DNA of 41,760 nt from NCBI RefSeq assembly GCF_003011125.1, contig NZ_PXVC01000031.1, positions 1 through 41,760 of the forward strand, read 5' to 3'. A program made the translations under genes and the position numbers. How positions within the stretch are numbered: position 1 is the stretch's first letter; each line of letters begins with the position of its first letter. The DNA is from Synechococcus lacustris str. Tous. GTDB taxonomy: Bacteria; Cyanobacteriota; Cyanobacteriia; PCC-6307; Cyanobiaceae. Positions 1,133 to 16,265 of this stretch are shown piece after piece. The notes under the pieces were generated by a model that was given only the letters and a program-made list of their open reading frames with translations, ran no database searches and was not told where the DNA came from.

Positions 1133-1980
1133 ATAGCCTGCCGGCGGATTGGGAGCTCGATTACTACTCCCGGCCCCTTCAAGATGCCAACGGCAAAAAA
1201 CGTTGGGAATTGTTGCTGAATAGCTCCAATAACAGCTTCCGCTGGCAGCGCTTTTGCCCAGCTGAAAGCGTTAATTCCCAGTGGCTTAACCAGGCGCTCA
1301 GCGATGCCATCAGCGAAGCGAAAGCCGAGGGCATTGAAATAGCTCCACGGCTGCGTTGCTGGCGTCCATCGATGCGAACGATGGTGCAGCGGGCCGCAGA
1401 GCCCCTGGGCCTTGAGGTGATCGGCAGCCGCCGTTGCTATGGCCTAATCGAATGGATTCAAGAACGGGAGGCCGAGGTATATCCAGCCATGGAAGGCTTT
1501 TTGGTAGGTCCTTTAGCGCCACCCCCAAGCCCCATCAAGCCCTTGGCCCTGCCCCTACCGGAAGCGGTAAGGGGTGATCAATGGAGCTGGGCCAGCCTTC
1601 CAGCTGCAAGCCTGGCGGAGGCAAACCAATGGCCGATCGATTTTGCCGGCTTGATTCCCCTACCTGAGCTATCAAAAGCTGCATCGATTCCTGGCGTGAG
1701 GTTATTTAGCCCCAGCCGTGCCCTAGCCCTAGCGGGTTGGTTAAGCGGCCTTGAACCTGTGCGCTTGGAAGTTCGCGATCAACAACTAGTGCTGGAAGCA
1801 GGCATTGAGGATCGCTGGTTGGTTAGTGACCTAGCGCCAGAGGCGGCAGATGCCGCTAAGCAGGTATTGAATGAAGCCCGCAGCAATGCCGGCGGCTTGC
1901 AATTTTTGGCGGTGCAAAGCAGCGAGGCAGTGAGCAACTTTTCTGGCTTTTGGTTATTGCGAGATCTAGCCGATGGCTGA
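1129..1980 (+). CDS. Tab2/Atab2 family RNA-binding protein (DUF1092)
   Basis: A 283-residue protein opening with the family signature ELDYYSRPLQDANGKKRWEL and containing the conserved CWRPSMRTMVQRAAEPLG stretch near residue 80. This family includes Chlamydomonas Tab2 and plant ATAB2, which bind RNA and are needed for translation of photosystem I (and II) core subunits in plastids. A similar role in the cyanobacterium is inferred from the family. The ATG overlaps the stop of the S1 gene (ATGA), and the 3' end overlaps pgeF by 8 bases. Sitting directly behind an S1 protein suggests a translation-related unit. Confidence 0.85.
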   Translation: MNSLPADWELDYYSRPLQDANGKKRWELLLNSSNNSFRWQRFCPAESVNSQWLNQALSDAISEAKAEGIEIAPRLRCWRPSMRTMVQRAAEPLGLEVIGSRRCYGLIEWIQEREAEVYPAMEGFLVGPLAPPPSPIKPLALPLPEAVRGDQWSWASLPAASLAEANQWPIDFAGLIPLPELSKAASIPGVRLFSPSRALALAGWLSGLEPVRLEVRDQQLVLEAGIEDRWLVSDLAPEAADAAKQVLNEARSNAGGLQFLAVQSSEAVSNFSGFWLLRDLADG

Positions 1981-2755
1981 GGGCCCGTTTAACAAACCCG
2001 ATAAAGGTTTCAACAACATTCCCGGCTGGACCTGGATTGGCACCTACGGCGGCTACTACCTGCAATGCAACCAACTTGAGGAATTTGAACACGGCTTTTT
2101 CACGCGCCAATGGCATGGCCGCGGCCCAGAGGAGCTCGTGGGCTATGTGAGCTCTGGGGTGAGCGTGCATCGCCCCCAACAGATCCATAGCGCCTTGGTG
2201 CTCCCAGCCCCCCAGGCCAGCCAAGCGCCATGGCCGGAGGCCGATGGGTTAGTGAGCACAAAAGGAGGGCAAAGTTTGTGGGTGTGTGGTGCTGATTGCA
2301 CCCCTGTGCTGGTGGCCGATGCCGCCACTGGCCGGGTAGCCGCCTGCCATGCAGGCTGGCGTGGGGTAGCGGGCGGCATCCTCAAAGAAGCAATCCAGCA
2401 AATGGAAGCAGCCGGTAGCAAACGCAAGGATTTACTAGTGGCGCTGGGACCGGCCGTAAGCGGGCCCAACTACCAAGTGGAAAGGCAGGTGAGCAGCCAA
2501 TTGGGCGAAATTGAGCAGCTGCAGGCTATTGCTGCGGTGCTGCCAGATTCAAAGCCTGGCTGCGATCGCCTAGATATCCGTAGGGCTGCCTGGTGGCAAC
2601 TGAAGCAACTGGGCCTTACGGAAGCGCAAATCAGCAGCTGCCCCCTCTGCACAGTGGCTGAACCAGAGTTATTCCATTCCTGGCGCCGCGATCAGGTAAA
2701 AGCAGTGCAGTGGAGCTGCATCGTGAGCTCTAGCAGCGTTGAAATGCAACGGTGA
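1973..2755 (+). CDS. pgeF: Peptidoglycan editing factor PgeF (YfiH/DUF152, multicopper-oxidase-like)
   Basis: A 260-residue protein of the YfiH family, which removes wrongly incorporated residues from peptidoglycan precursors and was earlier described as a laccase or purine nucleoside phosphorylase. The metal-binding positions are visible: VHRPQQIH (His72), CGADCTPV (Cys109) and ACHAGWRG (His126). Length is typical of the family. It starts inside the 3' end of the Tab2-like gene and its tail overlaps the tail of the DUF938 gene on the other strand by 26 bases. Confidence 0.88.
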   Translation: MAEGPFNKPDKGFNNIPGWTWIGTYGGYYLQCNQLEEFEHGFFTRQWHGRGPEELVGYVSSGVSVHRPQQIHSALVLPAPQASQAPWPEADGLVSTKGGQSLWVCGADCTPVLVADAATGRVAACHAGWRGVAGGILKEAIQQMEAAGSKRKDLLVALGPAVSGPNYQVERQVSSQLGEIEQLQAIAAVLPDSKPGCDRLDIRRAAWWQLKQLGLTEAQISSCPLCTVAEPELFHSWRRDQVKAVQWSCIVSSSSVEMQR

Positions 2756-3395
2756 GGTTGTTTGCTGGCATCGGCCAACGGCCAAACAGTTCAAAACCAT
2801 GGTGCTGGGCAAGGCTGCTCACCTCCCCAAGGCAGCGAAGCCCCCAACTTGGATCTCGCTCCTGCAAGGAGTTATCAAAAGCTTGATTACTTGGGCTTAG
2901 CGGCAAGCCAACTTCACGGAAGGGGCCATAGAGCACGAGCAAATTCCCCGGCAGTAAAAGCTGCGCCCCATGGACGAACAGTCCCTCGGTGGCGGCCCAT
3001 GGGGCGATATGGATCATGTTGATGCAAAGCAGCAAAGCTGGCTGTTCGCCAAGGTTTGGCCAATGGGCCGCCATGGCATCAAGCTCAAGCGGAGCCGCCA
3101 TGGCAGCTAAACCAAAATGCTTGGCCCAAGCCGCAATGCTGGCTCGATGGGCCGGTTCAGGGTCGCTACCGCGCCAGCGCAAATCAGGGTGGCTGCTGCT
3201 AAATCGCTGCTGCAAATAGCAAAGATGTTCGCCACTGCCACTGGCGATTTCCAACACCAAACCAGCCTGCGGCAACAATGGTTCCAACACAAGCGCAATA
3301 GCTTCGCGATTACGTTCAGTTGCTGGAAAACAGAGCCGCTCAGCATCCCTAGCTTCAAAAATTCCGTTCACAATTAACTGCATCCGATTATTCAT
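2730..3395 (-). CDS. DUF938 family SAM-dependent methyltransferase
   Basis: A 221-residue Rossmann methyltransferase. The opening PATERNREAI, the SAM-binding motif EIASGSGEH (about residues 49-57), LCINMIHIAPW and LYGPFREVG are characteristic of DUF938. The substrate of the family is not established to my knowledge. The gene is monocistronic, divergent from the small membrane protein at 3404 with only eight bases between the start codons, so the two promoters must overlap the opposite coding sequence. Confidence 0.85.
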   Translation of the reverse strand: MNNRMQLIVNGIFEARDAERLCFPATERNREAIALVLEPLLPQAGLVLEIASGSGEHLCYLQQRFSSSHPDLRWRGSDPEPAHRASIAAWAKHFGLAAMAAPLELDAMAAHWPNLGEQPALLLCINMIHIAPWAATEGLFVHGAQLLLPGNLLVLYGPFREVGLPLSPSNQAFDNSLQERDPSWGLRCLGEVSSLAQHHGFELFGRWPMPANNLTVAFQRC

Positions 3396-3403
3396 TTTTC
3401 AGC

Positions 3404-3601
3404 ATGGCCCATCCCTTTTGGTCGTTGAAACCCTGGTGGTGTCAACCCTGGACAATCCTGCTCACGGGCACGGTTGCTATCACCACCAGTTGGCTAGTGC
3501 TGCACATTTGGTGGTTAACCGCTGCCATTGCCGTGCTGGTGCTGGCCTGGTGGTGCCTATTCCTCTTGATTGTTCCCAACATCACCCCCGTTGAGCAATA
3601 G
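3404..3601 (+). CDS. Small membrane protein, DUF6737-like
   Basis: A 65-residue protein with an N-terminal WSLKPWWCQPWTI motif followed by two closely spaced hydrophobic segments (about residues 17-34 and 38-58). Short cyanobacterial proteins with the same WSLKPWWCQPW opening exist; I recall them as DUF6737, but that name is from memory. Function unknown. The last 45 bases lie antisense to the 3' end of the alpha/beta hydrolase gene. Confidence 0.7.
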   Translation: MAHPFWSLKPWWCQPWTILLTGTVAITTSWLVLHIWWLTAAIAVLVLAWWCLFLLIVPNITPVEQ

Positions 3602-14049: not shown

Positions 14050-15189
14050 TTGGCATTTACAAATCAGGTTATCAACCTGAAAGTTAATTTGTTTTCACCA
14101 CCGGTGGTAACAAAAGCTGCTTTAGTTTATTGCGAAGGCAACTTTGCAGGGCTAGACGGCAAAACAGCCCATGGTTTAGTTCGCTTCTGTGAGGCTTTCA
14201 AAATCAAGGCAGTTATCGATAGCCAATTGGCGGGTAACGATGCCGGACTGCTTCTAGACGGCATCAGCAATGGCATACCAATTGTTGCCGACCTGGCCAC
14301 GGCGTTGGCCTTAAAGGGGCCACCTGTCACCACATTTATCTACGGCATGGCCCCTGCCACTGGCCTCTATGGAGATGCCGATCGCCGGGCACTGCTAGCC
14401 GCCATGGCAGCGGGATTGGATCTGGTGAGTGGCATGCGCGAATTCCTCAATGAAGACCCCGAATTCGCAGCCGCCGCTGCCCAGCACAACGTTTCGATCA
14501 GAGATGTGCGACGTCCGCCTGATTTAAAAGATCTACACCTCTTCAACGGCTCAATCGCCACAGCAAGCTGCGTTCGAATCGCCGTACTCGGCACCGATGG
14601 CGCCATCGGTAAACGCACCACTGCCACTCTGTTGGTGCAAGCCCTTAATGAAAGTGGCATTCACGCTGTTTTGGTTTGTACAGGCCAAACAGGCCTCATT
14701 CAGGGGGGCCGCTATGGCATTCCCCTAGATGCAATTCCATCCCAATTTTGCTCAGGGGAAGTGGAGGCGGCTGTGGTTGGGGCCTATCGCAGCGAAAAAC
14801 CAGCTGTGATTGTGATTGAAGGTCAAGGGGCCCTCAGTCATCCGGCCTACCTCTCCTCAAGCTTCATCCTGCGGGGCAGCCAACCCCAAGCAGTTGTTCT
14901 GCAGCATGCCCCAGCTCGCCGCCAGCTCAGCGACTTCCCATTTATTCCCATGCCCACACCTGCCAGTGAAATTAAGCTGATTGAATCCTTTGCATCAACG
15001 CGGGTAATCGGCCTAACCCTGAACCACGAGGGGATGGATGACGCCGAGGTGAGCGCAGCAATCGCCCTTTATTCGGCCGAACTTGCAATTCCCGTAACCG
15101 ATGCTGTAAGTCGCGCACCCGCTGCCCTAGTGGCAATGGTGCTGCGGGCGTTTCCTGAATTGTGTACCCCAGCCAATCCAAAGCCTTGA
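14050..15189 (+). CDS. DUF1611 family protein, DgcN-like N-acetyltransferase/P-loop protein
   Basis: A 379-residue two-domain protein. The N-terminal half has YCEGNFAGLDGKTAHGLVR and VIDSQLAGNDAG; the C-terminal half is a P-loop domain with GTDGAIGKRTT at residues 181-191 followed by GQTGLIQGGRYG and EGQGALSHP. The DUF1611 member DgcN was reported to act on D-glutamate (N-acetylation) together with the epimerase DgcA. That function is borrowed from the family. The TTG start at 14050 lacks a good ribosome site and could lie a few codons downstream. The next gene begins at or before its stop codon, so the two are coupled. Confidence 0.82.
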   Translation: MAFTNQVINLKVNLFSPPVVTKAALVYCEGNFAGLDGKTAHGLVRFCEAFKIKAVIDSQLAGNDAGLLLDGISNGIPIVADLATALALKGPPVTTFIYGMAPATGLYGDADRRALLAAMAAGLDLVSGMREFLNEDPEFAAAAAQHNVSIRDVRRPPDLKDLHLFNGSIATASCVRIAVLGTDGAIGKRTTATLLVQALNESGIHAVLVCTGQTGLIQGGRYGIPLDAIPSQFCSGEVEAAVVGAYRSEKPAVIVIEGQGALSHPAYLSSSFILRGSQPQAVVLQHAPARRQLSDFPFIPMPTPASEIKLIESFASTRVIGLTLNHEGMDDAEVSAAIALYSAELAIPVTDAVSRAPAALVAMVLRAFPELCTPANPKP

Positions 15190-16265
15190 GCGCTCCAAGG
15201 CTAGAGATTCATCTCGAGCACCTTCAACACAACGCAAGAACGATGGTGAATCGACTTGCGAGCCAAGGCATAAAGATCACTGGTGTAAGCAAATCAACGC
15301 TGGGAATGCCTGAAATAGCACGCACCTGGGTAGCAGCAGGGGTGCATTCGATTGGAGAAGCGCGCATTGAATCAATTGAAATCCTGAATCGTTGCGAATT
15401 AGGTGTTCCCTTGCTTCTGATTCGTTCACCAATGCTCAGCCAGGTGGAGCGGGTGGTGGCCCATGCGGCCATCAGTTGCAATAGCGAACTAATCGTGCTC
15501 AAAGCCCTTGCTGCGGCGGCGGCTTGCCAGGGAGTACGCCATGGGGTGATGTTGATGGTGGAGCTTGGGGATTTGCGCGAAGGCGTCCTCGCCGCAGACC
15601 TGGAGGCGATGGTGGTGCTTACCTTGGCGCTACCAAGTTTGTTGCTGGTGGGGATAGGCACCAATTTGGGTTGCCAGCACGGGATCGCTCCTGATCCAAC
15701 CAACATGGCGGAGCTATCGCGGCTAATTAATGCCATGGAGGCACGTTTTGGCATCAAATTGGAGTGGTGTTCCGGTGGCAACTCCGCCAATCTTCCCTGG
15801 CTAGCAAGCGGTGGGAAGCCAGGCCGGATCAACCACCTGCGCCTTGGCGAGGCACTGCTACTCGGCAGAGAACCTCTCACCCGCAAGCAAATACCAGGGC
15901 TCTATACGGATGCCATAACCCTGGTAGCTGAGGTGATTGAGTGCAAGCTAAAACCAAGCCAACCGTGGGGAACACCCCACTCCACGAGCTTTTCTAATGA
16001 ACCAACAACATCACAAATAACTCCACAAATAACGCCAGCTCAACCCATGACAAGGCGAGCCCTACTTGCCCTTGGCGAGCAGGATGCAGATCCAGCGGGC
16101 CTTAGCGCAGCTCAACTCACCATTGAGGGAGCCTCCAGCGACCACCTAGTGGTTAGCGGAGCAACCATGAAACTTGGGGTTGGAGACGAGCAACGCTTTC
16201 AGATCAGCTACAGCGCCCTATTGAGGGCGATGACTTCACCATTCGTGAGCCGTTGTTTCATCTGA
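15186..16265 (+). CDS. Ornithine/alanine racemase-like PLP enzyme (fold type III)
   Basis: Read from the TTG at 15186 (TTGA overlap with the preceding stop) this is a 359-residue protein; an in-frame GTG at 15162 is an alternative. It matches the alanine/ornithine racemase group: LEIHLEHLQHNA, then Lys36 in ITGVSKSTLG as the PLP lysine, IGEARIESIEIL, MVELGDLREGV, GIGTNLGCQHG and CSGGNSANLP. A low-complexity stretch of Thr/Gln/Pro/Ser replaces part of the C-terminal domain loop at about residues 265-285. It probably interconverts L and D forms of an amino acid that the DUF1611 partner then modifies, or the reverse. The exact substrate is not determinable. Confidence 0.85.
   Translation: MSAPRLEIHLEHLQHNARTMVNRLASQGIKITGVSKSTLGMPEIARTWVAAGVHSIGEARIESIEILNRCELGVPLLLIRSPMLSQVERVVAHAAISCNSELIVLKALAAAAACQGVRHGVMLMVELGDLREGVLAADLEAMVVLTLALPSLLLVGIGTNLGCQHGIAPDPTNMAELSRLINAMEARFGIKLEWCSGGNSANLPWLASGGKPGRINHLRLGEALLLGREPLTRKQIPGLYTDAITLVAEVIECKLKPSQPWGTPHSTSFSNEPTTSQITPQITPAQPMTRRALLALGEQDADPAGLSAAQLTIEGASSDHLVVSGATMKLGVGDEQRFQISYSALLRAMTSPFVSRCFI

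Follow-up and report, generated by a model that had tools for sequence, protein, structure and literature searches.

A DUF1611 gene coupled to an Orr-like PLP racemase gene in Synechococcus lacustris Tous and its relatives: a conserved pair with a possible role in making and fixing a D-amino acid

In the DgcN-DgcA system, the DUF1611 protein DgcN is coupled to the enolase-type racemase DgcA; acylation comes first, and its product is the substrate of DgcA. In fold-III PLP racemases, the cofactor forms an aldimine with the free alpha-amine of the substrate. One account of the DgcN-DgcA route describes conversion of D-Glu to L-Glu for D-Glu utilization (PMC10845958), and another terms it an irreversible racemization pathway (PMC12363236). 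DUF1611 is still named a domain of unknown function, and the pair described here would give it a second partner chemistry besides DgcA. A search by title or abstract start, conducted without most subscription journals, found no paper on a DUF1611-racemase pair.

The window, i.e., the whole stretch of DNA analyzed (41,760 nucleotides from S. lacustris Tous), carries a DUF1611 gene at 14050..15189 on the plus strand (379 aa), whose product is a P-loop enzyme similar to DgcN and belongs to the Orr-paired clade. The gene for an Orr-like fold-III PLP racemase follows at 15186..16265 on the same strand. The racemase ORF was listed from a GTG at 15162 (15162-16265, 367 aa), and the two ORFs as listed overlap by 28 nt; the overlap is 4 nt if the racemase starts at TTG 15186. 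Residue 9 of the listed racemase ORF was a methionine in at least 90% of the 47 aligned sequences, and TTGA, the final four bases of the DUF1611 gene, was in frame with the racemase, so TTG 15186 appears more likely to be the start than GTG 15162. The likely start TTG would lie within the DUF1611 stop TGA (TTGA, 15186..15189, plus strand), a putative case of translational coupling. The DUF1611 gene ended in NTGA in 93 of the 102 paired loci (ATGA in 51, TTGA in 23, and GTGA in 19). The DUF1611 start at 14050 is uncertain, and the conserved part of the protein begins at about residue 21.

We tentatively propose, as a reading somewhat short of probable, that the pair forms one operon-coupled unit, spreading horizontally, whose products make a D-amino acid, probably a basic one, and fix it. 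The Orr-clade racemase would act on a free amino acid, most likely ornithine, lysine, or arginine, and convert its L-form to the D-form and back. The DUF1611 protein would then, like DgcN, put an acyl group, probably acetyl, on the alpha-amine of the D-form. Since a PLP racemase needs a free alpha-amine, racemization would come first and N-acylation second. N-acylation would lock the chirality, so that what is otherwise a 1:1 equilibrium would run in one direction, and capture of the D-form by the DUF1611 protein would be the most economical reading of the pair.

The DUF1611 protein was characterized by Pfam and NCBIfam scans and an AlphaFold2 model. It matched PF07755 and PF17396 with 214 and 81 bits (cut-offs of 25 and 22.6), respectively. 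The DgcN model NF041892 gave 152.7 bits, below its cut-off of 480, and gave 153.8 and 155.8 bits on other paired members. The AlphaFold2 model (pLDDT 90.2) was most similar to 2obn (DUF1611 of Anabaena) and 2g0t (TM0796 of Thermotoga maritima), with Z-scores of 41.3 and 39.1, respectively. DgcN (7xrj) matched with a Z-score of 34.4 and an rmsd of 3.1 (322 aligned), and the two-domain fold with the P-loop was present. The P-loop, a Walker A-like motif GTDGAIGKRTT, is encoded at 14590..14622 on the plus strand, and its residues G181, D183, G187, and K188 were kept in the alignment. No GNAT-fold chain was found among the 50 structural matches listed for the model, which excludes nothing.

The C-terminal half of the DUF1611 model resembled the P-loop proteins dethiobiotin synthetase, cobyrinic acid a,c-diamide synthase, and CTP synthetase (Z 14-15), and bioD was a weak NCBIfam match. 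Given this similarity of the P-loop domain to ATP-dependent ligases, the reaction may depend on ATP and not be an acyl-CoA transfer. The DUF1611 protein could then be an ATP-dependent ligase that uses its P-loop domain to activate a carboxylate and couple it to the D-amino acid product of the racemase, or that carboxylates or cyclizes a D-diamine. The P-loop residues kept in all three groups of DUF1611 proteins fit such a ligase, but a common P-loop fold does not show ATP use, and the nearest characterized relative, DgcN (7xrj), is an N-acetyltransferase by its deposited name. We consider a ligase rather unlikely, and N-acylation remains the preferred chemistry.

DUF1611 residues were compared in an alignment with 107 Orr-paired rows, 28 epimerase-paired rows from cyanobacteria, and 4 DgcN-type rows. 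The core common to all three groups comprised G181, D183, G187, K188, T211, G212, Q213, D227, and A228, together with E257, G258, Q259, H286, N325, P348, and D351. Thirty-one positions were constant in the paired group only. Six of these positions are acidic (D36, E131, E237, D295, E307, and E327) and mostly not acidic in the other rows, while R189 and H326 are basic; R189 also occurred outside the paired group, in 2g0t and in a Halorussus row. The acidic paired-specific positions, putatively located in the pocket, fit a basic substrate weakly.

The racemase matched PF01168 (Ala_racemase_N) with 82.8 bits (cut-off 24.1). Its best NCBIfam match was racem_Orr (NF040742), with 296.4 bits over nearly the full length, below the cut-off of 480. 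Both domains of the predicted model (pLDDT 93.3) matched alanine racemases (Z 29.4). Lys44, encoded at 15291..15293 on the plus strand and part of a GVSK motif, was invariant in the 47 aligned sequences, and we take it to be the PLP-binding lysine by homology to alanine racemase. The features of a fold-III PLP racemase were thus present, namely the Ala_racemase_N domain above its cut-off, the PLP lysine, and the two-domain predicted fold. The earlier note had claimed that the DUF1611 gene overlaps the gene of a fold-III PLP enzyme, and this was borne out: the overlap is real, the domains of both proteins score above the Pfam cut-offs, relatives show the same arrangement, and the two-domain model resembles alanine racemases with a Z-score of 29. 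K44 and many other invariant residues were common to the paired racemases and the unpaired Orr proteins, and R13, L32, E134, W213, and T249 were the sole positions separating the two.

Hints to the substrate came mostly from sister racemases. Ten of the 12 unpaired Orr matches in three non-cyanobacterial phylum samples were long open frames with an Orr part and a second part, and the second part was an arginase domain in all four that were scanned of these ten. Orr racemases with a fused C-terminal arginase-family domain occurred in several phyla (L206, L197, L212, L213, and L180). The unpaired Orr protein of a Shinella plasmid has an arginase domain, and its gene adjoins genes for D-amino-acid dehydrogenase and 5-guanidino-2-oxopentanoate decarboxylase. 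At the paired locus L145, an ornithine cyclodeaminase gene (592 bits, cut-off 440) lies 98 nt downstream on the same strand. These hints suggest arginine, ornithine, or lysine as the substrate of the racemase family. Within the paired clade, the basis is this one locus and residue conservation.

Trees of both proteins were obtained by quick searches with SH-aLRT support only. The racemase tree placed 101 paired rows on one side of a branch and 17 unpaired rows on the other (SH-aLRT 99), and the paired racemases were therefore not in the clade of the unpaired Orr proteins; L126, with a racemase piece of 219 aa, was left out. In the DUF1611 tree, for which paired loci were used if their DUF1611 piece exceeded 250 aa, 107 paired rows were placed opposite 38 others (SH-aLRT 99) without the two long-branch rows L217 and L220; when these were kept, the paired group needed two changes instead of one. 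The rows include some genes reached twice, e.g., L203/L174, L210/L121, and L215/L137. For 97 pairs, the pairwise distances of the two proteins were correlated with r = 0.905, whereas the highest value in 1000 permutations was 0.18; the 66 non-cyanobacterial pairs also gave r = 0.905 (permutation maximum 0.32). The DUF1611 protein and the racemase are inherited together.

A genome-collection scan with eight cyanobacterial racemases found at least 577 relatives, and among the best 80, which were examined, a DUF1611 gene lay directly upstream on the same strand in all 80. Twenty-four of these 80 closest relatives were titled cyanobacteria. According to record origins, the non-cyanobacterial relatives came from Pseudomonadota, Thermodesulfobacteriota, Myxococcota, Planctomycetota, Kiritimatiellota, Verrucomicrobiota, Lentisphaerota, Acidobacteriota, Gemmatimonadota, Actinomycetota, and Bdellovibrionota, although labels of MAG records can be wrong, as with L097, which is titled Bifidobacterium and nests among cyanobacteria. 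In 292 cyanobacterial genomes, the Orr model gave eight full-length matches (at least 287 bits), the remaining matches reaching at most 54.5 bits, and all eight adjoin a DUF1611 gene on the same strand. A further DUF1611 protein above the cut-off was encoded in seven of these eight genomes, the exception being G211. An Orr-type racemase was found in 11 of 349 Pseudomonadota genomes, paired in seven and unpaired in four, and a profile of the paired DUF1611 proteins reached at least 574 bits in exactly the seven genomes with paired racemases and at most 174.5 bits elsewhere. Chance adjacency was ruled out by the 80 relatives together with this co-occurrence in the same seven genomes. The second and third non-cyanobacterial phylum samples (198 and 194 genomes) gave six and four Orr matches, respectively, with one paired in each, namely the query genome itself.

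Among near relatives, the racemase was present in 16 of 119, and all 10 loci examined were paired, three of them counted before. Twenty plasmid records contained a racemase relative, with pairs on Vibrio and roseobacter plasmids. A plasmid of Vibrio coralliilyticus (L177) carries a paired-type DUF1611 gene without the racemase, so the link between the two proteins is not absolute. The patchy distribution hints at transfer and loss. The order and coupling of the genes are kept in about a dozen labelled bacterial phyla and on plasmids, which argues that the pair is under selection as a unit. The earlier note had regarded the pair as distinct from DgcN-DgcA and had looked to the phylogeny of both proteins and to co-occurrence across cyanobacteria; a paired clade of its own for each protein, the correlated distances, and the adjacency across relatives all agree with a conserved unit of this kind. 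The DUF1611 gene of the pair was split into two frames at L046 (6331-7379) and L107 (2842-4098), which may reflect decay or misassembly of some copies.

The source genome assembly (2.67 Mb, 305 contigs, completeness 98.59) contains a second DUF1611 gene on contig C284 (L002). An epimerase gene and this DUF1611 gene (2523-3563 and 1474-2529, minus strand) overlap, the end of the first with the start of the second. The epimerase has an MR_MLE_C domain and is best matched in NCBIfam by DgcA, with 157 bits (cut-off 400); the best match of the DUF1611 protein is DgcN, with 209 bits (cut-off 480). The earlier note had placed the PLP racemase in the window instead of the usual epimerase, and this part of its claim fails, since the same genome pairs a second DUF1611 gene with a DgcA-like epimerase gene. 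Replacement of the epimerase system in S. lacustris Tous is ruled out, and the window pair is an additional, parallel system. The note had also held that a separate DgcA ortholog would tell against a different D-amino-acid route. The C284 epimerase is such an ortholog in a loose sense; it refutes replacement and leaves the different route standing, because the paired DUF1611 proteins form their own clade.

The same findings bear on a D-glutamate route in which a different racemase has taken the place of DgcA by non-orthologous replacement. DgcN is among the DUF1611 relatives, and an Erwinia phage pairs a DgcN-like DUF1611 protein with an Alr-fold protein, as such a route would have it; against it, the genome already has a DUF1611-epimerase pair, the 31 positions constant within the paired DUF1611 clade differ from the others, N-acetyl-Glu is no possible substrate for a PLP racemase, and the associations of the racemase family are with arginine and ornithine. 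We regard this route as improbable.

A separate Alr-like ORF of 406 aa was found on contig C1 (Ala_racemase_N, 225 bits). When the window racemase was aligned with this Alr by hhalign, only the N-terminal 165 columns were covered, and the C-terminal tyrosine region lay outside. The Alr model TIGR00492 gave 23.7 bits on the window racemase against a cut-off of 168, and the low score and the separate gene ruled out its identity as the wall alanine racemase. Because a separate Alr gene exists, an alanine-only role in the wall, which the earlier note had named as refuting its claim, is unlikely. The window racemase has the alanine racemase fold, but given that score, the canonical Alr encoded elsewhere, and the DUF1611 adjacency in the 80 relatives, we give almost no credence to a wall enzyme that lies beside DUF1611 incidentally.

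At 55 non-cyanobacterial loci, no third universal partner gene was found among the 86 nearest neighbors of at least 150 aa, with those above 700 aa left out. The commonest neighbor was an M81/MlrC-like metallopeptidase gene, at nine of the 55 loci (L115, L117, L121, L123, L129, L142, L147, L155, and L157); it lies downstream on the same strand at L115 and L117 and is mostly divergent upstream elsewhere. These neighbors, the patchy distribution (16 of the 119 near relatives), and the DgcN-DgcA precedent of D-Glu utilization (PMC10845958, PMC12363236) could point to salvage or detoxification, in which scavenged D-ornithine or D-lysine re-enters the L-pool through the racemase and the DUF1611 protein removes the excess as an N-acyl form. 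However, a PLP racemase alone would be enough for conversion from D to L, M81 was absent from all eight cyanobacterial genomes with the pair, and no transporter or D-amino-acid oxidase recurred beside the pair among the first 25 of the 94 neighbor families listed. Salvage is thus unlikely in our judgment, and we continue to prefer synthesis and fixation of a D-amino acid.

HflK/HflC genes, candidate partners of the pair, lie near five loci outside cyanobacteria, in various Proteobacteria and on plasmids (L146 2-2070, L173 15364-17411, L176 14952-17035, L177 11102-13149, and L201 1547-3606), an association spotted by inspection with no proper null. The HflK-HflC genes near pairs were 68-78% identical where compared, and the L177 copy is near the lone paired-type DUF1611 gene. 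Plasmid pairs are also accompanied by NhaA, GroEL/GroES, or Hsp20 genes. In several Proteobacteria, the gene just upstream of the pair encodes a secreted, Cys-rich protein whose repeats resemble YGSGWxCxxGY (L146 2067-2864, L158 3692-4651, L174 8853-9692, L175 9935-10762, L176 9858-10712, L203, L204, and L205), and the one member scanned, that of L146, had no Pfam or NCBIfam match. From the company of these neighbor genes, a stress-related role for the pair would be a guess. In some genomes of Cyanobium relatives, an SPFH-domain-like gene, labelled by eye and likewise a candidate partner, lies downstream of the racemase; in another genome, it is upstream of DUF1611 (L081 7062-7922 and L088 1630-2643). 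Two Pontiellaceae genomes (L137 7149-8915 and L148 7130-8887) have a YcaO gene immediately after the racemase gene.

The conserved pair points to an undescribed D-amino-acid pathway and offers a clear, cheap biochemical prediction, namely a basic D-amino acid as substrate, with the racemase acting first and the DUF1611 protein second. Should this hold, cyanobacteria and marine bacteria would contain a class of metabolites, the N-acyl-D-basic amino acids, that has been overlooked. A broader reading, speculative and on balance doubtful, would be that DUF1611 is a general chirality-locking family, coupled at least twice to PLP racemases besides enolase-type epimerases, and that the unit makes an undescribed N-acyl-D-basic amino acid, possibly a protective solute on mobile stress-tolerance islands. 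The two PLP couplings in that reading would be the cross-phylum unit and, independently, Erwinia jumbo phages. In the jumbo phage pEa_SNUABM_40 (L238 2680-4646), a DUF1611 gene overlaps the gene for a 311-aa Ala_racemase_N protein by 4 nt, an asparagine-synthase-like gene follows, and the DgcN model gave 307 bits on the DUF1611 protein, below the cut-off. DUF1611 was found in 34 phage records and the phage-type racemase in 12, all from Erwinia; two other phages that were examined had no gene of racemase size between DUF1611 and the next gene.

Compared with known systems, the window pair shares with DgcN-DgcA the DUF1611 fold, the kept P-loop core, and the coupling to a racemase. It differs in its partner, which is a PLP fold-III racemase and not DgcA, and probably in the order of steps, which would be reversed. 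Furthermore, the window DUF1611 protein falls in a separate clade and below the DgcN cut-off, and a DgcN-DgcA-type pair coexists in the genome. The racemase belongs to the same two-domain PLP family as Orr (NF040742) and the Orr-arginase fusions and has many invariant residues in common with them, but it scores below the Orr cut-off and lies in a separate clade, and in every relative examined the paired clade is found beside DUF1611, with no arginase fusion seen there. The DUF1611 and dipeptide-epimerase pairs of cyanobacteria and haloarchaea (2obn type) likewise couple DUF1611 to a racemase or epimerase gene, and an epimerase gene was adjacent to DUF1611 in 25 of 30 cyanobacterial loci. Those epimerases have the enolase fold, in contrast to the PLP fold III of the window racemase; the DUF1611 clade is different, and the epimerase gene is upstream in the cyanobacterial loci listed. 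T. maritima has lysine racemase activity, its genome also matches the Orr model, and its TM0796 (2g0t) was the best PDB sequence match to the DUF1611 profile (210 bits). The pair is real, conserved, and functionally linked, and it belongs within the DUF1611-racemase theme as a variant and is not a system of a new kind.
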